This document shows positions 13,150 to 20,729 of a stretch of 36,439 nt of DNA, one piece after another. A program made the position numbers and the translations under genes. This DNA comes from Chitinophagaceae bacterium (lineage in GTDB: Bacteria > Bacteroidota > Bacteroidia > Chitinophagales > Chitinophagaceae). The notes under the pieces were generated by a model. The model did no database searches and was not told where the DNA came from. It worked only from the letters and a program-made list of their open reading frames with translations. Location of the stretch: the NCBI GenBank assembly GCA_025934485.1, contig JAICXX010000044.1, positions 1-36,439 on the forward strand, written 5' to 3'. How positions within the stretch are numbered: the stretch's first letter is position 1; every line of letters begins with the position of its first letter.

Positions 13150-15879
13150 TCAGCGTTTTACCCTTAGTGCGCGGGAAAAAAATTTTATGGCGATCAGCGG
13201 CGTTAGAGCAACAAGCAACCACCATAGCCACCTACCCGCGGTCCTATGGGCTGAAGCCAGCCCGCTATGGCTGCCGGGGTCAAAAGGCATGGGGTTTCCC
13301 TGATAATTCAACGCGGCCCAATAATAAGGCAGCTGAAGCAGCTGCGAACGGCCCGGCTCGCTGAGCCAGGCCAGCTTGCATTGTCGCAGGGCTAGCGCCG
13401 CGTTTTCCGCACCACCCGGCTGCGCCGCCATCTGTGTGTAAAAATCAGCCATTAGTTTCGCCGTCGCCTCATCGTTGACATTCCACCACCCCGCCACGAC
13501 CGCGGCGGCGCCGCCTGCCGTAAAGGCCCGTGCAAGGCTTTGAACGCCTTCGCCCGATACAAAACGTCCATCGCCCGTACGACAGGCGCTCAGGACGACA
13601 AGCGAAGGATGGCAGTCGAGACCTTGCATGTCGAAGACATAGAACGGGCCGTCGTAGAACTCGATATGCGGCGCATCCAGGCTGTCCTTAGCAGTAAAGG
13701 CATGCGAGCTGATGTGCACGATCGAGGCGCCGCCCAGGGCCGTGCGGAACGCAGCCATTGTAGCCTGGCTATCGACATACCAATGTGCATCGGCAACGGA
13801 CGGCCCGATACCGCTTTTCTCCGACAACACCGCCTGCAGTCCGGGCAGGTCATGCCGGCCGGCAGAAAGGAAGAAGCCCGAGAACCCTTTACCACGACCA
13901 TGCTCCCGCTGTTGCCACAAGGTTTGCAGACTGTAGCCGTAGGCTATCGTCGTCTGGCGGATTACGTATGGCCAGGTTGAGGGAGCGTCGGAAAAATGAT
14001 CCGGCAAGGTGATCAATGCCTCCACCGGCAATAGATTCAAGGCACCGTCGGGTAACAGCAAGTAGGCCTTACCCGAAGAAAAGGGGTGCGATCCGAAAAA
14101 CCGCACATATAGGCTATGGGCATCACGATAGAAATCCGCAGGATCATCGATCATATTGTTGACGCCGGAATCAAACCAATGATGCATAAAAGCCCGGATG
14201 CTGTCCTGCCAGCCGGCAGCCATCGATAGCCTGTCCACATAACGCAGCCCCTGGCGTCCGCATTCGATGGTATATAATACCTTCTCGCCGGCAAAATAGC
14301 TTCGCGTGAGCCAGTGGGCAGGCAGCAGGTTAATCATGCTATCGATCTTAAATCCCGACACCGGGGCAACCCGGTGTTTCTTTTCCAGCTTCGACAGCTC
14401 CCAGCCGGTCTCCCGAAGCTGCGACAAAACGGTGCTGTCGCCGTCACCGATGCGTTCCCGTTCATAATAAGCTTTTGCTTTTTCAAGCAGCCGGATGCGC
14501 TGTGACAAAGGATCGCCCGGGTGTAGCCCCTGTTGCTGCCGCACTTCGTCGAGTAACAGCTGCGCCTTGCTGCTCTCCATAAAACGAAGCATCGCATAAG
14601 CATATTTCTGCTGCCGGGTACGGCTCCACGCCCCCCATGCGAAGGCGATGGCCTCCTCGTAGCGGCGACGGGAATCCCCTACCCACCTTTCTTTGGAGCT
14701 GGTCGTGATCAGCTGCTGCCGCCCCTTCCGGTCGGTCTCAAAGGACAGCTCATAATAAAAGATCGCCTTGTCAGCATCGGCTTGCAGGCCGGCCAGCGTA
14801 TACAACGCATCGGCCAGTGTGTTCTCGGCATAAAGATCGGCAGCCTGCAGGGCCGCCGGTTTCTTTCCCGGTACCAGCACAGCTACACAGGAATCCAGCC
14901 AGCTCGCGGCCTCGTCCTTCCGCCCCAACTCGCCATACACGGCGCCTAAACGTTCGTACAACTTGGCCCTGTCCCTTTGCCGCAAGTTACCTGGCGCTGA
15001 CGCCAACCGTCGTTGCAACACAAGCGCCCGCTGATAAAAGCCGAGCGCTTGTCTTGTCGGCCCGTACAGATCACCCGCTTGCCGATAAGCTACGAACAAC
15101 CAATTGCCCGCGGAAGGATGATCATGCGCCCGCTGTAAGATGTCGATACTTTGCTGTAAGACGCGTTTTGCGCTGTCCGTCTTGCCCAGTTCACCATAAG
15201 CATCGGCGAGTTCCGACAGAAGCAGGCCGGCGATCGCGGTGCGAGGTCTGGCCACGGCAAGTCCCTTCCGGCAATAATCCCGTGCCGCCCAAGGCCGGCC
15301 CATATTGCCACAGGTATTCGCCAGGTTGCTGTACACACCCGCCAGCGCCTCATGATCCCCGAGCGCCAGGGCAAGCGCCGCGGCTTTTTGATGGATGTAC
15401 AAAGCCTGCTCATAATCGCCCAGCCGGGTATAGTTATTCCCCAATGGCTTCAATACCGACTCCAGCACAAGCCCGGCATCCACGACCGCCGGATGCGACC
15501 GGGCAAAATCATAGGCGGCAGTATAGGCATCGGTGGAGGGGACGATCGCGCCGCCGAGCAGCAGGCTATAGCCTTCGTTCGCAAGCAGGTCCAGCCAGGC
15601 CTGCTGTTCTTCGGGTGTCACAGGCGCACGCCAGGTTTGCCGTACGGCCCATAGCAGCCGACCACTGCGTTTTGCCGGGGCCTTCGCCGTCCATTCCAGC
15701 TGGGCATAGATCCAGCCGGAGAGATCATCTTTGGCGCGAAGCGCAGAAAGCCGCGACGAGAGTGTTGCATCGAATGGCGGGAGTGCCGCATTGGACGACG
15801 AGAGTGCCGCATCAGATTGGGAAAAGACCTGGCCTGCGAGGAACAAAAATAAAAAGGGTATCGTCAGAAATTTCTTCAA
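13150..15879 (-). CDS. Exported TPR-CHAT (caspase-like) protein
   Basis: The 909-aa protein starts at a TTG giving a good signal peptide (MKKFLTIPFLFLFLAGQVFSQ); an earlier TTG at 15897 would add six residues. Residues about 110-430 carry tetratricopeptide repeats, such as NYTRLGDYEQALYIHQKAAA and YSNLANTCGNMGRPWAARDY. The C-terminal CHAT domain has the caspase-type dyad: His726 in VHISSHAF and Cys766 in VVLSACRTG, then GEGVQSLARAF and the final block YYWAALNYQGNP. A membrane helix (WLWWLLVALTPLIAIKFF) and a basic tail end the protein, so the protease should face the periplasm. The gene follows the PKD gene with no real spacer, as one operon. CHAT domains are peptidases; the target here is unknown. 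Confidence 0.9.
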   Translation of the reverse strand: MKKFLTIPFLFLFLAGQVFSQSDAALSSSNAALPPFDATLSSRLSALRAKDDLSGWIYAQLEWTAKAPAKRSGRLLWAVRQTWRAPVTPEEQQAWLDLLANEGYSLLLGGAIVPSTDAYTAAYDFARSHPAVVDAGLVLESVLKPLGNNYTRLGDYEQALYIHQKAAALALALGDHEALAGVYSNLANTCGNMGRPWAARDYCRKGLAVARPRTAIAGLLLSELADAYGELGKTDSAKRVLQQSIDILQRAHDHPSAGNWLFVAYRQAGDLYGPTRQALGFYQRALVLQRRLASAPGNLRQRDRAKLYERLGAVYGELGRKDEAASWLDSCVAVLVPGKKPAALQAADLYAENTLADALYTLAGLQADADKAIFYYELSFETDRKGRQQLITTSSKERWVGDSRRRYEEAIAFAWGAWSRTRQQKYAYAMLRFMESSKAQLLLDEVRQQQGLHPGDPLSQRIRLLEKAKAYYERERIGDGDSTVLSQLRETGWELSKLEKKHRVAPVSGFKIDSMINLLPAHWLTRSYFAGEKVLYTIECGRQGLRYVDRLSMAAGWQDSIRAFMHHWFDSGVNNMIDDPADFYRDAHSLYVRFFGSHPFSSGKAYLLLPDGALNLLPVEALITLPDHFSDAPSTWPYVIRQTTIAYGYSLQTLWQQREHGRGKGFSGFFLSAGRHDLPGLQAVLSEKSGIGPSVADAHWYVDSQATMAAFRTALGGASIVHISSHAFTAKDSLDAPHIEFYDGPFYVFDMQGLDCHPSLVVLSACRTGDGRFVSGEGVQSLARAFTAGGAAAVVAGWWNVNDEATAKLMADFYTQMAAQPGGAENAALALRQCKLAWLSEPGRSQLLQLPYYWAALNYQGNPMPFDPGSHSGLASAHRTAGRWLWWLLVALTPLIAIKFFSRALRVKR

Positions 15880-15897
15880 CGACCCCAAGATAATCAA

Positions 15898-17904
15898 TCA
15901 AAGCTTAAATCCGGCGTAGAGCCAAAAGCGGTTCGTTACCTGCCCGGACAAAAGCCGCATATACCGGACGCCCGCGACCGGCCCATGCCGAACCGCGCCA
16001 AACTGCAGATCGATAAAAGGCGCTGCATTGACACTGCCCAGATAAGTTACGGCAGATTTGGTCGTGGTCACGGCAGTCTGAACGTTCTGCGAGAGCAGCT
16101 GTGTGACGAAATAGGCGCGGTTCTCGGTGGTCGTCTGTTCGGAAATGTTGATCTGCGCCATGGCGCCGGCTCCAACACCGAAATATTTGCCGAGATTATA
16201 TCGAAAATGCAGGGGCGTCAGCTCAAAGCTGTTGCGGTTAACGGTAGTTTTTGTCTGTCTTCCCGTGATGATAAAAGGCAGCCCGCCGATAAGCGTGTCG
16301 CTGTTATCCTTTGCTATCGTGCTGGTAAAGGCGTCCTGCTGGAGCAAGCCCACGAAGGCCTCTACCTGAAAATAAGGCCGGAACGGCGAATACGGCGCAA
16401 GCACATACCCAAACTGCAAGGGTCCGCTGGCGGTATAGCCCCCGTTACCCGGCAGTACACTGTAGCCCACCATGATGCCCGGCGAAAGCCCCTTGATAAA
16501 CCGCGCCGTCGCCTTGTTTGTCACCAGGGGAGCCTGCCGGTCGAAAGCGATAGCCGCCTGCGTGCTGAACGGTATCTTCTTTGGCTTCCGCTTAAATCGT
16601 ATCGCGTATTCCACAAAGCCGGTGGTGCTGTCCTTGTCCCCCACCCCCTCCTGCTGGATGCCCGGGAGATAGATGTTGTCGAATACAAAATAGATCGAAT
16701 CGCCACGACGGATCGTATCGATACAACTCGCGCGGGCATAGGTCGAGTCACACCACTTACACACGGGCTTTATGGCATTCAGCCGGATGCTTTCGGGGTC
16801 GAGCTGGTGCGGGATGGCCAGGCCCACGGAGATATGACGCGCGGGTCCGGTACCGGTATTTTGAAATTCTACGCGGTAAAGCAGCTCCTTCTTTTGTTTG
16901 AAGAACCGGTAGTTGATGCGACGCGACCGCAGCATCATCCTATTGGGATCATGGGATGACACCACCTGCATATCCAACGCATACAGCTGTGGTGGCTGGC
17001 TGGGATCGTCCGGCACCAGCATGGCTGAAAGCCCCACCGTGGCATTGGTATCCTGAAGCATTTCGGGTAGTGTATTCATATCCATGAAGACAAACTGCTC
17101 CGTGCCCCTCGCGATCGAATGAAAATGTACCACGGCATGACTGCTATAGTTGTCTTCGAGGGAATGCAGCATGCTCTGGGTCTCGCTTGAAAAATCCGCG
17201 ACCACGCGCTCCCCCGCCCCGCCGGCTCCTTCGTCAGGCGCGTTATCAGTGCCAATCATGGGCCCATGCCCTGTCGCCTCGAAGGCCACCTCTTCCTTCA
17301 GCGCCTGCTCGTCGACCCGCGCCGTGAGCGACTGAAGATTTCCGCCATCCTCGTTGTGATAAAACCGCTGTTCGGCCAGCGAAAAACCCTGACGGTCCAG
17401 CTGCCGGTCGTTATAGAACAACACAATACTCCCACTTAGACTGTCCTGGTACTGGTTACGATAGCCGAGGATCGCCACGAAGTCTTCACCGGGCTTCGGA
17501 TAGCGATTGATCTTTAGCTCGACATCCCCGCTGCCATGAAAAAAATGGGAGACCCAGGCATCTTTGGTCAAAGACTTTTTTTTGATCCTGACCTTTCTGG
17601 GCCGGGTTGGCGGCGCCTTGCCGTCGTCGTAATTGTTCGTAGCGTAGAGCCGGATAGCATAGGTGCCGGTATCATGATAGGCATATACGGGCGCCTTGTC
17701 GAAGCTAAAATGACCGTCGCCGAGTTCCCAGAAATAGCTGTAGAACGCCGGGGGCGCCCCTGCTATTTGTCTCAACGGCCTCAGTGTAGCCGATAGCCGC
17801 ACACTATCGCCTGTCTCCCCGATATGCAGGGCAGGCGGAATGGTGTCCTGGGAAAAAGCACGCAGCTCCAGAATCGACAAGAGGCAAAAGATCATCACCT
17901 TCAT
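15898..17904 (-). CDS. Secreted PKD-domain protein with beta-rich C-terminus
   Basis: The 668-aa protein has a signal peptide (MKVMIFCLLSILELRAFSQ) and a PKD domain at about 25-105 (YFWELGDGHFSF, VYAYHDTGTYAIRLYATN). A middle region contains a DUF11-like stretch (LLYRVEFQNTGTGPARHISV). The last 200 residues alternate polar and nonpolar residues in beta-strand fashion (YFQVEAFVGLLQ, LHFRYNLGKYFGVGAGAMAQ) and end in WLYAGFKL, like an outer-membrane barrel. It is probably a surface or outer-membrane protein with a periplasmic or exposed PKD sensor. It is first in the operon with the CHAT gene and lies behind an ECF-type promoter. The ATG is only about two bases after the predicted transcript start, so the mRNA may be leaderless. 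Confidence 0.82.
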   Translation of the reverse strand: MKVMIFCLLSILELRAFSQDTIPPALHIGETGDSVRLSATLRPLRQIAGAPPAFYSYFWELGDGHFSFDKAPVYAYHDTGTYAIRLYATNNYDDGKAPPTRPRKVRIKKKSLTKDAWVSHFFHGSGDVELKINRYPKPGEDFVAILGYRNQYQDSLSGSIVLFYNDRQLDRQGFSLAEQRFYHNEDGGNLQSLTARVDEQALKEEVAFEATGHGPMIGTDNAPDEGAGGAGERVVADFSSETQSMLHSLEDNYSSHAVVHFHSIARGTEQFVFMDMNTLPEMLQDTNATVGLSAMLVPDDPSQPPQLYALDMQVVSSHDPNRMMLRSRRINYRFFKQKKELLYRVEFQNTGTGPARHISVGLAIPHQLDPESIRLNAIKPVCKWCDSTYARASCIDTIRRGDSIYFVFDNIYLPGIQQEGVGDKDSTTGFVEYAIRFKRKPKKIPFSTQAAIAFDRQAPLVTNKATARFIKGLSPGIMVGYSVLPGNGGYTASGPLQFGYVLAPYSPFRPYFQVEAFVGLLQQDAFTSTIAKDNSDTLIGGLPFIITGRQTKTTVNRNSFELTPLHFRYNLGKYFGVGAGAMAQINISEQTTTENRAYFVTQLLSQNVQTAVTTTKSAVTYLGSVNAAPFIDLQFGAVRHGPVAGVRYMRLLSGQVTNRFWLYAGFKL

Positions 17905-17906
17905 AC

Positions 17907-17936
17907 TTTAAAGATATCAACCAACGCATAGTTTTG
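17907..17936 (+). promoter_or_regulatory. Housekeeping promoter of the sigma gene
   Basis: TTTA (17907-17910), 18 nt, then TAGTTTTG (17929-17936) matches TAnnTTTG fully and the -33 element at three of four bases. It is 46 nt upstream of the sigma ATG. It physically overlaps the divergent ECF promoter at 17913-17944, so the two polymerase complexes should exclude each other. Confidence 0.6.
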
Positions 17937-17944
17937 TTACCCCC
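17913..17944 (-). promoter_or_regulatory. ECF-type promoter of the PKD-CHAT operon
   Basis: The reverse strand reads GGGGGTAACAAA, with GTAAC at 17940-17936, then 17 nt, then GATATC at 17918-17913. The same arrangement with the same spacing lies at 19301-19332 before the Ala-rich gene. A purine/A-rich CGGCAAA precedes both. The -35 core GGTAAC has the AAC typical of ECF sigma promoters. Confidence 0.75.
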
Positions 17945-17982
17945 TTTGCCGTATTTTTTTATATTCGTTCAAAATCTTTGGA

Positions 17983-18540
17983 ATGGCGATACATCCGGAC
18001 CAGCGTTTTATCGGGGGTTTATTAGCCAACGACGGCCCCACGGTGGACGAGATCTACCGGAAATATGCCGGCACCATCCGGAATTTTATTTGCAAGAACG
18101 GCGGGTCCGAGGATGACGCGGCCGATATCTTTCAAGAGGCGCTGATCGATCTGTATAACCAGGCCCGCTACAAGGACCTGCAGCTTAGCTGTCCTTTTGA
18201 GGCCTTTCTGTTGCTGGTGTGCAAAAGGAAATGGTACACTATCCAAAAGAAAAAAGGGCTGCACCGGGTAACAAATTCCACAGAAGAAGTATCTCTTGTG
18301 GGAGAAGACGTATTTGCCCGGGCGGAGCAGCTTGCGGCCGAGGAGTCACGCGCCCGGCTTTTTCTCGAACAATTTGCCCGGCTGGCGGACAAATGCAAGG
18401 AGATCCTTACACTGAGTCTCACGGGTGAGGCCCAGGAAAAGATCGCCGAACGGCTCGGCGTCACGTATGGCTATCTGCGAAAAAAGAAATCCGAATGTAT
18501 GGCGACACTGTTATCCTATATACAAGCACAGAAATTGTAA
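17983..18540 (+). CDS. ECF-type RNA polymerase sigma factor
   Basis: The 185-aa sigma-70 family protein has region 2 (VDEIYRKYAGTIRNFICKNG, EDDAADIFQEALIDLYNQ, and the KRKWYTIQKKK end) and region 4 (LADKCKEILTLSLTGEAQEK followed by IAERLGVTYGYLRKKKSEC). Region 3 is absent, as in ECF factors. It is followed after 3 bp by an anti-sigma-like gene, the standard arrangement. Its likely targets are the two matching promoters at 17913-17944 and 19301-19332. Confidence 0.93.
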   Translation: MAIHPDQRFIGGLLANDGPTVDEIYRKYAGTIRNFICKNGGSEDDAADIFQEALIDLYNQARYKDLQLSCPFEAFLLLVCKRKWYTIQKKKGLHRVTNSTEEVSLVGEDVFARAEQLAAEESRARLFLEQFARLADKCKEILTLSLTGEAQEKIAERLGVTYGYLRKKKSECMATLLSYIQAQKL

Positions 18541-18543
18541 ACT

Positions 18544-19290
18544 ATGGCCACTTACGATAATCAATGGATCATCCGTTATGTGGATGACGAGCTGAGTCCC
18601 GAAGAGTTGGGGGCTTTCGAAGCGGCGATGCACACCGATCCCCAACTTGCCGCGCAAGTGGCGGAGTACCGGGAACTGAAAGCGATTCTGCAGGAGCGGC
18701 TCCCCGAGGATCAAATCCGCCAAGCGCTGAAACAACGAACTACCCAGCTCAATAAACTATACTTTGAACCGGGGACATCCAAGCCAGCCACCGGCAGGGT
18801 CCGTATGCTTCGGTGGCTTGCGCCGGTAGCCGCCGCGGCCTGCATCCTTGCGGCCACAGTCTTATTATGGCCCAGCGACTATAATCATAAACTCGACCAG
18901 CTCGGCCAGACGGAGATGATCGGTGTTACGGAAAGAGGGGTTCAAACCGACAGTCTTTTGCAAGAAGCGGCCGTGTACTTTAATCAAAAGCAGTTCGACA
19001 AGGCCCTGCCGCTTTTGAATGGGGCGGTCGTCGCCGATACCAGCAGCCAGCTGGCGCTTTTCTATCTCGGGATAGCGGCCTGGCACACGGGCGACGTGGT
19101 GCTCGCACGGAGCTCCCTGACACAGGTATATGACCGCGGTTCGGTTATGAAGAACGATGCCGCTTTCTATATGGCGTTGACCTATGCCCAGGAAAAAAAC
19201 AAACGCATGGCGCTGGATTGGTTGCGGAAGATCCCAACGATGGCTCCTGAGCATTTGAAATCCAACGAGTTAGAAAATCTTATGAAATAA
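18544..19290 (+). CDS. Membrane anti-sigma-like protein with periplasmic TPRs
   Basis: The 248-aa protein has an N-terminal cytoplasmic helical region (IIRYVDDELSPEELGAFEAA), which matches the start of anti-sigma domains, but the zinc ligands HxxxCxxC are absent. One membrane helix is at about 90-109 (RWLAPVAAAACILAATVLLW). The C-terminal part carries about three tetratricopeptide repeats at 136-239 (AAVYFNQKQFDKALPLLNGA, ALFYLGIAAWHTGDVVLARS). It is coupled to the sigma gene by a 3-bp gap. I infer that it holds the sigma factor at the membrane and reads a periplasmic protein partner through its TPRs, possibly the PKD or CHAT protein. Confidence 0.85.
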   Translation: MATYDNQWIIRYVDDELSPEELGAFEAAMHTDPQLAAQVAEYRELKAILQERLPEDQIRQALKQRTTQLNKLYFEPGTSKPATGRVRMLRWLAPVAAAACILAATVLLWPSDYNHKLDQLGQTEMIGVTERGVQTDSLLQEAAVYFNQKQFDKALPLLNGAVVADTSSQLALFYLGIAAWHTGDVVLARSSLTQVYDRGSVMKNDAAFYMALTYAQEKNKRMALDWLRKIPTMAPEHLKSNELENLMK

Positions 19291-19300
19291 CGGCGAAAAA

Positions 19301-19332
19301 GGGGGTAACAAATTCCCGGTTGGCTGGATATA
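19301..19332 (+). promoter_or_regulatory. ECF-type promoter of the Ala-rich gene
   Basis: GGGGGTAACAAA (GTAAC at 19305-19309), 17 nt, then GATATA at 19327-19332. It repeats the 17913-17944 promoter in sequence and spacing, with CGGCGAAAAA just upstream. The start codon of the Ala-rich gene lies 17 nt beyond the GATATA. It sits within the 59-bp gap after the anti-sigma gene. Confidence 0.75.
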
Positions 19333-19349: not shown

Positions 19350-19853
19350 ATGAAACGTATCATCATCGCAACCATTGTTATCGCATCTTTTGGAATCGTA
19401 AATCAGGCTTCCGCCCAGATCCGGCTCGGCGCCGTCGCTAATACGCGGGTAACCTCTGCCGCGAGTGTCAATACGCCGGCCATCAGCCATGCGCTGAGGG
19501 CGACCGCTGCGACGAGCAACGCGGCCGTAAAGGCATCCACGGCAACGGCCGGCGCTGCTGCCAGGGCTTCGGTATCCACGGCATCCAAAGCCGCTCAGAC
19601 AACGGCGACAACGGCTAACAGCGCGGTGCATACGACGGTCGACGCCTCCAGCAATGCCGCTCATGTGACTACAGCAGCAGCCAAGTCCGCCGCAAGCAAC
19701 ACGTCAGCGGCAACTTCGGTTCAATCAACGACCGCCGCAGGCACCTCCGGCACGTCTGCAAGTACCAGCAACAGCACCAGCGCCGCAGTCAACACCAAAC
19801 CCATCAACGCCGGTGCTTCGGTAAGGACGTCCGGTAAAGTGTCCGTTCATTAA
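19350..19853 (+). CDS. Ala/Ser/Thr-rich secreted low-complexity protein
   Basis: The 167-aa protein has a signal peptide (MKRIIIATIVIASFGIVNQASAQ) and a mature chain made almost only of Ala, Ser, Thr, Val, Asn and Gly with a few Lys/Arg/His. It has no aromatic residue, no Glu, no Cys and one Asp. Alanine clusters with spaced Lys/Arg (NAAVKAS, AAARAS, SKAAQTT, AAAKSAAS) could form amphipathic helix or stay disordered. It resembles LEA-like, antifreeze-like or matrix proteins in composition only. ATG 19350 starts the signal peptide; an upstream TTG at 19320 is less likely. It is controlled by the ECF-type promoter. Confidence 0.75.
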   Translation: MKRIIIATIVIASFGIVNQASAQIRLGAVANTRVTSAASVNTPAISHALRATAATSNAAVKASTATAGAAARASVSTASKAAQTTATTANSAVHTTVDASSNAAHVTTAAAKSAASNTSAATSVQSTTAAGTSGTSASTSNSTSAAVNTKPINAGASVRTSGKVSVH

Positions 19854-19916: not shown

Positions 19917-20729
19917 ATGTCACGCCTCTTCCATTTAACCCTCGCGCTCCTGCTCGTTGCGCAAATGAGTCATGCCCAGGACTCTGCTTTTGTCCACGTC
20001 AACGGTGGCGTCCTCTACAATTCCGGTCTTAACTATTATGGCCGCGTAGACAGCCTGAGAAGCAAGGGCGTGTGTCCGTTCCTCGGATTTTCACTGAAGA
20101 ATGGACTCTATGTCAACTCGACTTTCGTGTTTATCGGGAACAGCCTTCAATCTCAGTATGCCGCTACCCTGCTGGAAGCCGGCTACAATTTCAGCGATAG
20201 CGCCGGCAAACATTGGGCAGGAAATCTGTCCGTCTCGCGTTTTCTCTATCAGCCCGGGATCGATCTCGTCGAATCCGTGGTCAGGGAGATGGCGTCGGCC
20301 AGCATTACCCAGCTGAACAAGGTGGCCAATATTACCCTTACCGCCAGCGCCCGCTGGAGTAACCAGGTCGACTATAACACCCAGGCAGGATTGGATCACA
20401 TCATCCGTATCCCGAACGTGTTCAGCAAAAAGGGCGTCCTCGTCTTCGATCCCACGGCAACCATCGCCGCCGGTACCCAAAACTTTACGACCACCTATTA
20501 CCAGGAGAAGCAATTCCTTTTCATCCCCGTGCAACAGCAGCAGATCACGGCCATCAGCGAGCAATTCAATCTTCTCGCCTACGAGGTCAGCTGCCCGGTG
20601 GTCTACGGGCTCGGCAAGATCAAATTGATGCTCACACCTGCCTATGTGCTGCCACAGCATGTCATTGCGGGATCGGAGACCGGTTCCAATCTGTTCTATG
20701 TGACGGCGCTGGTGAAAGTGAGCTTTTAA
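19917..20729 (+). CDS. Outer-membrane beta-barrel-like secreted protein
   Basis: The 270-aa protein has a signal peptide (MSRLFHLTLALLLVAQMSHA) and alternating beta-strand patterns (YVNSTFVFIGNSLQSQYAAT, LLEAGYNFSDSAGKHWAGNL, ITLTASARWSNQVDYNTQAG). It ends in VKVSF, with a terminal Phe typical of outer-membrane barrels. Function is unknown. ATG 19917 is chosen because it starts the signal peptide; the TTG at 19887 falls inside the terminator hairpin. Expression probably depends on readthrough from the Ala-rich gene. The stop overlaps the convergent BNR gene by 4 bp. Confidence 0.75.
   Translation: MSRLFHLTLALLLVAQMSHAQDSAFVHVNGGVLYNSGLNYYGRVDSLRSKGVCPFLGFSLKNGLYVNSTFVFIGNSLQSQYAATLLEAGYNFSDSAGKHWAGNLSVSRFLYQPGIDLVESVVREMASASITQLNKVANITLTASARWSNQVDYNTQAGLDHIIRIPNVFSKKGVLVFDPTATIAAGTQNFTTTYYQEKQFLFIPVQQQQITAISEQFNLLAYEVSCPVVYGLGKIKLMLTPAYVLPQHVIAGSETGSNLFYVTALVKVSF

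Follow-up and report, generated by a model that had tools for sequence, protein, structure and literature searches.

A Conserved Promoter-Like Site inside an ECF σ Factor Gene May Serve the Downstream Anti-σ Gene

Introduction

Which genes does an ECF σ factor read when its own gene and that of its likely inhibitor are flanked by two copies of one promoter-like sequence, and how is the inhibitor itself supplied? The question is raised by a contig of 36,439 nucleotides from a Chitinophagaceae bacterium (JAICXX010000044.1), the whole of which is referred to below as the window. The initial annotation, made from the sequence of the window, took the two copies for ECF promoters that define a small regulon. 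Here, we follow this proposal through the window, the genome it comes from and orthologous loci, and describe a third copy of the motif, which lies within the σ gene.

Results

The σ/Anti-σ Locus

The σ gene (17983..18540, + strand) encodes a protein of 185 amino acids that matches Pfam Sigma70_r2 (25.2 bits, cut-off 24) and NCBIfam TIGR02937 (54.4 bits, cut-off 42.9). Both its size and the helices that lie on either side of a linker in the structural model are those of an ECF σ factor. Against the model of the Bacteroides-type σ70 subfamily, TIGR02985, the protein scored 44 bits, below the cut-off of 126.4. The next gene (18544..19290, + strand) likely encodes the anti-σ factor, a protein with an anti-σ-like N-terminal region, a hydrophobic stretch near residue 91 and TPR repeats. 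Its matches to anti-σ models all stayed below the curated cut-offs; NF052375, for example, was matched with an E-value of 8.5e-12 and 45.5 bits, under the cut-off of 100.

A divergent operon begins to the left of the σ gene. Its first gene (15898..17904, - strand) encodes a PKD-DUF7619-DUF7849 protein as defined by Pfam, and the second (13150..15897, - strand) encodes a protein with Pfam TPR and CHAT domains and, as judged by hydrophobicity, a hydrophobic stretch at each end. By eye, the TPR-CHAT protein carries the sequences VHISSHA and SACRTG. Given these sequences and the two hydrophobic stretches, it is possibly a membrane-anchored exported protease and, by analogy with CRISPR-linked CHAT systems, might act on the anti-σ protein. 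A strict text pattern for the CHAT catalytic pair was matched at only 30 of the 111 orthologous loci described below, a count on which we base no conclusion. To the right of the anti-σ gene, on the + strand, lie a gene for an Ala-rich protein with an N-terminal hydrophobic stretch and no Pfam family (19350..19853) and a gene whose product has no Pfam match (19917..20729), homologs of which adjoin the Ala-rich gene in other loci.

Two Copies of a Two-Part Motif Flank the Gene Pair

Both copies reported in the initial annotation are present where it had placed them. The left copy (17914..17944, - strand) consists of GGGGGTAACAAA at 17944-17933 and GATAT at 17918-17914 and is the predicted ECF promoter of the PKD-CHAT operon; the right copy (19301..19331, + strand) consists of GGGGGTAACAAA at 19301-19312 and GATAT at 19327-19331 and is the predicted ECF promoter of the Ala-rich gene. 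The gap from the end of GTAAC to GATAT is exactly 17 nt in both, as had been noticed. CGGC, which together with an A tract had been counted as part of the pattern, does precede both window copies but is absent from the family consensus given below, and an A-rich stretch at positions -8 to -5 is weakly conserved across the family.

If transcription started 5-9 nt past GATAT, the 5′ end of the PKD transcript would fall at about 17909-17905, right before the ATG at 17904. With 17904 as the start codon, this predicted transcript would be nearly leaderless; another ATG is located at 17895.

A chance origin of the flanking copies was considered and rejected. Short or loose patterns are not enriched: with two mismatches allowed, GTAAC-N17-GATAT is found 24 times in the window versus 19.2 expected, which is at chance level (10 of 100 shuffles were as high), and without the G tract the exact pattern occurs seven times in the genome versus six for the backwards pattern. 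The longer motif, however, is enriched. With at most one mismatch, GGGGGTAACAAA is present twice in the window versus 0.12 expected, and none of 100 shuffles reached two. In the whole 6.75-Mb genome, GGGGTAACAAA occurs three times, namely in the two flanking copies and once within a reading frame (C57); the genome's matches to GTAAC-N17-GATAT do not include this last occurrence.

Ortholog Sets

A search of 294 genomes of the family with the σ protein returned 45 matches at an E-value of 1e-25 or better. The first set consists of 41 of them, the window included; the four weakest (L087-L090, 32-36% identical) were dropped by a cut that was chosen after the motif table had been viewed, and these distant relatives are without the intragenic site described below. 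The second set comprised the best 80 of 333 named loci, which came from another collection and were selected by protein patterns with the DNA motif unused. Ten of the 80 duplicated a first-set sequence over the stretch compared and were dropped; the 70 new sequences together with the first 41 make up 111 distinct σ orthologs. These span Chitinophaga, Niastella, Pedobacter, Mucilaginibacter and Indibacter, among others, and include 40 Sphingobacteriaceae, assigned by record title. A phylum-wide search with the σ protein gave matches at 1e-25 in 55 of 395 genomes; the weaker of these matches are probably other ECF families.

The Motif and Its Spacing Are Conserved beside the σ Gene

Within 600 nt upstream of the σ gene, GGTAAC-N17-GAT[AC]T was found on the opposite strand in 83 of the 111 loci; the same search with spacers of 12-16 and 18-22 nt found it in 0 of 111. 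A looser -10 element raised the number of loci with opposite-strand copies to 91, and the consensus of these 91 copies is gGGGGTAACAaatt ... TTGATATa.

The initial annotation had suggested asking whether the motif clusters beside this σ family in related genomes, and it does. In 41 genomes that carry the σ gene, GGTAACA-N16-GATAT is present at 107 sites versus 34 for the reversed control, and 43 of the 107 sites, distributed over 31 of the 41 genomes, lie within 8 kb of the σ gene, where 0.27 would be expected. In 41 genomes that have no close ortholog, 21 sites were found versus 16 for the reversed control; these genomes were hand-picked: 19 of them lack any match at 1e-15, and the top match of the other 22 is no better than 3.9e-22. 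Carrier genomes are on average larger than non-carriers, a difference for which the reversed control compensates.

Twenty sites unlinked to the σ gene were chosen by eye out of the 107, with a bias toward good motifs. Fifteen of them were called intergenic, and 14 of the 15 have a same-strand gene 6-52 nt downstream; the other five (L136, L137, L138, L143 and L144) are inside open frames, three of which are long. PKD-like genes follow at L130, L131, L133 and L134, with 27-30 nt between GATAT and ATG. The PKD identity was confirmed by Pfam for L130, and the σ loci of the genus to which these four belong are without a PKD gene in the fetched stretch. Other genes downstream of unlinked sites are lipoprotein-like or outer-membrane-like, with OmpA domains in two of ten scanned; a Pfam scan of the lipoprotein look-alikes L127, L139 and L142 returned no match.

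The fixed 17-nt spacing and the enrichment both by the σ gene and before distant targets thus bear out the initial reading of the motif as an ECF promoter. An AAC-type -35 element and a -10 element at fixed spacing, as in ECF promoters, are conserved beside the σ gene, and recognition by the σ factor is predicted on these grounds; a promoter read by the adjacent ECF σ factor is strongly supported by the comparison of loci and genomes. One can ask whether the motif instead binds another regulator, such as an activator or a repressor, since two half-sites at a fixed distance might in principle accommodate a dimer. However, the two halves are, by eye, neither direct nor inverted repeats, their spacing is that of -35 and -10 elements, the copies are located shortly before start codons, and the site co-occurs with the σ family studied here. 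We consider such a regulator very unlikely.

A Third Copy Lies within the σ Gene

The initial annotation listed two copies. A third, with the same architecture as the flanking ones, is located inside the σ gene (18267..18294, + strand), with GGTAAC at 18267-18272 and, after 17 nt, TATCT at 18290-18294; we propose it as a promoter of the anti-σ gene. All 111 orthologs have GTAAC at the same σ codons, at nt 285 in most of the first set. In the first set, GTAAC is present in all 41 genes, the preceding G in 40, NATNT after 17 nt in 40, and GGTAAC together with NATNT in 39. In one thousand within-gene synonymous permutations, this last combination averaged 1.4 genes and never exceeded 8. Among the best 80 of the 333 named loci, GGTAAC occupies the intragenic place in all 80.

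Constraint on third bases was scored per codon column against the codon usage of the gene itself. In the first set, ranks 1-5 of 183 all fall to the five third-position columns of the motif, as do ranks 1-5 of 177 when all 111 sequences are taken; the ranks of these columns are 1, 2, 3, 4 and 7 of 177 for the 70 new sequences and 1, 2, 3, 10 and 11 of 176 for the 40 Sphingobacteriaceae. For Pedobacter and its relatives, the strongest signal again comes from the -35 part; the -10 part, mostly TATTA, is weaker. On a tree with a total length of 22.3, the third bases of the motif underwent 0, 0, 0, 1 and 2 changes versus 34 for the median column. The third base of the last motif codon is T in 70 of 111 sequences and mostly A in the others. 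Outside the promoter core, the third base of a lysine codon, AAA, six codons upstream of GTA shows two changes on the tree.

Scored in the same manner, 30 sequences of a paralogous ECF family, which share 65-100% identity with the query, have no fixed low-expectation third-base column, their largest z being 6.3; four random samples of 30 sequences from the σ orthologs gave largest z values of 9.2-11.3 and 2-4 such columns. Conservation of this kind is evidence of selection on DNA, though not of which process is selected.

Could the σ protein account for the conservation, so that the likeness to a promoter is a coincidence? The linker residues V96 and T97 are indeed invariant in 111 of 111 proteins. 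However, at three of the five motif codons the amino acid is variable and the third base little variable: G precedes GTA in 110 of 111 genes although the residue is P, G, K, Q, V or R, and A is found at the first -10 codon in all 111 although L, V, G, Q, A and others are encoded. The site corresponds to residues 95-104, between helices, and residues 94-108 are the sole stretch of the model with pLDDT below 50, so the linker encoded there is probably disordered. In addition, the intragenic and intergenic copies share the same spacing. A constraint from the protein is therefore strongly disfavoured, and we regard it as extremely improbable.

Gene Order at Orthologous Loci

The regulon proposed in the initial annotation, i.e., the PKD-CHAT operon and the Ala-rich gene, fits the window but is incomplete, with the usual lipoprotein gene and, probably, the anti-σ gene missing from it. 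Among the first genes after the 91 divergent copies, 71 are homologous to lipoprotein queries (three queries with a GGTKITIPAGAF-like stretch were used), 16 to the PKD protein and four to neither. The usual first divergent gene is accordingly one for a lipoprotein with a GGTKITIPAGAF-like stretch, as in L047, L052 and L151; it is not at that place in the window. Where an Ala-rich gene follows the anti-σ gene, a motif copy is located before it in each of seven distinct loci (the window, L048, L049, L147, L148, L153 and L162).

When CHAT is upstream on the - strand, the opposite-strand site is present in 80 of 86 loci and missing in six. When CHAT is downstream on the + strand, the opposite-strand site is present in 0 of nine loci, which are related to one another to some degree and so do not stand for nine independent events. 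The σ, anti-σ and CHAT genes are on one strand in the seven of these nine loci for which genes are listed; in L069-L072, a gene of 488-553 amino acids separates the anti-σ gene from CHAT.

These nine loci bear on what the intragenic site may do. Its -10 element is usually off consensus (TATCT, TATTA, CATAT and others), with GATAT in seven of 111 genes, and a promoter there may for this reason be weak. Alternatively, the site might bind the σ holoenzyme unproductively and act as a σ-dependent pause or roadblock that lowers transcription of the σ gene. A -35 element and spacing identical to those of the intergenic copies, together with a -10 that usually deviates, count in favour of such a roadblock. 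It is harder to reconcile with the nine same-strand CHAT loci: at the intragenic -10, seven of them read GATAT or GATTT, and six of them have no other copy with a 17-nt spacer in the DNA retrieved around the locus (for L085, this DNA starts only 672 nt upstream). The other three have further + strand copies, at +5517 beyond CHAT in L068, at +2877 inside CHAT in L075 and at +1727 in L225; the copy in L225, with GATAT before CHAT, could drive CHAT there instead of the intragenic site. Also against a roadblock, an open reading frame of anti-σ size (at least 150 amino acids) comes next after the σ gene in 110 of 111 loci, with its start codon between 17 nt before and 115 nt after the σ stop; the exception is L086, where the contig ends early. 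We thus consider a roadblock unlikely and prefer to view the intragenic copy as a putative promoter.

Transcription of the σ Gene

On the + strand within 600 nt upstream of the σ gene, the pattern with [GT]AT[ACT]T as the -10 element was found in 0 of 111 loci; when the -10 was relaxed to any NATNN, a match appeared in one locus (L050). A Bacteroidota promoter of the TAnnTTTG type upstream of the σ gene was looked for as well and gave no clear signal (19 of 111 loci versus 14.0 in shuffles); TAnnTTnG is present in 53 of 111 versus 32.6. An internal start producing a shortened σ protein was rejected, no in-frame ATG past the intragenic site being conserved (the commonest is present in 35 of 111 genes). 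A literature search for published transcript starts of Pedobacter, Chitinophaga and Mucilaginibacter found none.

Discussion

The motif, its spacing, its position, its conservation at the DNA level and the order of genes around it are plain from the sequences analysed. We propose that the flanking copies would function as -35/-10 promoters (GGGGTAACA, 17 nt after GTAAC, TTGATATA) read by the ECF σ factor encoded between them, the left one driving the PKD-CHAT operon and the right one the Ala-rich gene. The intragenic copy, located in codons of the σ2-σ4 linker, would also be a promoter of its own σ factor, giving a transcript that carries the anti-σ gene without the whole σ gene. A signal that frees the σ factor would then lead to synthesis of the targets and of extra anti-σ factor. 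Because active σ would add anti-σ while its own gene has no such promoter upstream, the response would brake itself. The internal promoter would drive CHAT too at loci where this gene comes after the anti-σ gene on the same strand. In this scheme, we infer three things from the sequence comparisons: that the σ factor recognises the motif, that transcription begins at the internal site, and that the response is braked.

We consider it likely that all three copies are read by the σ factor of the locus and that the intragenic one drives the anti-σ gene as a self-brake. A broader statement, also likely but made with somewhat less confidence, is that an ancestral anti-σ promoter is written into the linker codons of the σ gene and in part dictates the protein (Val-Thr), that it hard-wires negative feedback, and that it drives the output operon where CHAT is located downstream.

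A literature search found no account of the ECF σ family studied here, to which we can now assign a regulon of few genes and a promoter code that is well defined. The promoter-like site inside the coding sequence exceeds every other synonymous site of the gene in conservation, and it makes the setting of the σ-to-inhibitor ratio testable. It also serves as a warning that codon conservation in σ genes can hide promoters.

In E. coli RpoE-RseA and B. subtilis SigW-RsiW, promoters are located upstream of the σ gene and raise the level of σ as well. The present system resembles these pairs in having a gene for a putative membrane-bound anti-σ factor right after the σ gene and an AAC-type -35 element, and differs from them in that a consensus-form promoter upstream of the σ gene on the + strand is present in 0 of 111 loci. 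In Craspase-type systems, a CHAT protease activated by a CRISPR effector cleaves a protein that controls an ECF σ factor; the likeness here is limited to a TPR-CHAT gene near the σ/anti-σ pair. The σ factor FliA, to which we turn next, does not belong to the ECF group.

In Escherichia coli, a FliA promoter inside flhC is described as driving motAB-cheAW (PMC4183435). This arrangement shares with ours a σ-dependent promoter that is located in a regulator gene and drives a downstream operon, but flhC is not the gene of the σ factor and the target is not an anti-σ factor (PMC4183435). In Caulobacter vibrioides, the sigV promoter is described as lying inside the upstream gene cabp (PMC13171946), i.e., also within a coding sequence of an ECF regulatory circuit; that promoter, however, sits in another gene and drives the σ gene rather than an inhibitor (PMC13171946).

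The closest parallel is PrshA of Corynebacterium glutamicum, a SigH-dependent promoter within sigH from which rshA alone is transcribed. Northern blots and primer extension demonstrated this promoter, and a role in shutting down the response has been proposed for it (PMC3489674). As with PrshA (PMC3489674), a putative promoter of the σ factor's own is located in the coding region of an ECF σ gene and would feed the downstream anti-σ gene; the consensus of the same σ factor is thus found inside the σ gene upstream of the anti-σ gene, this consensus being an inferred one from which the intragenic -10 usually deviates. The passages of PMC3489674, PMC4183435 and PMC13171946 that deal with PrshA, the flhC promoter and the cabp promoter do not report how deeply these sites are conserved. 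Transcription from PrshA starts 62-66 nt before rshA (PMC3489674), whereas the site described here is in mid-gene, in the linker, some 240 nt before the anti-σ gene. Unlike PrshA (PMC3489674), it belongs to another phylum, has another consensus, is fixed in 111 orthologs and is known from sequence. An internal promoter for an anti-σ gene is already known from C. glutamicum (PMC3489674); the putative one described here adds a case from a different phylum, with a different consensus and at a different position in the σ gene.
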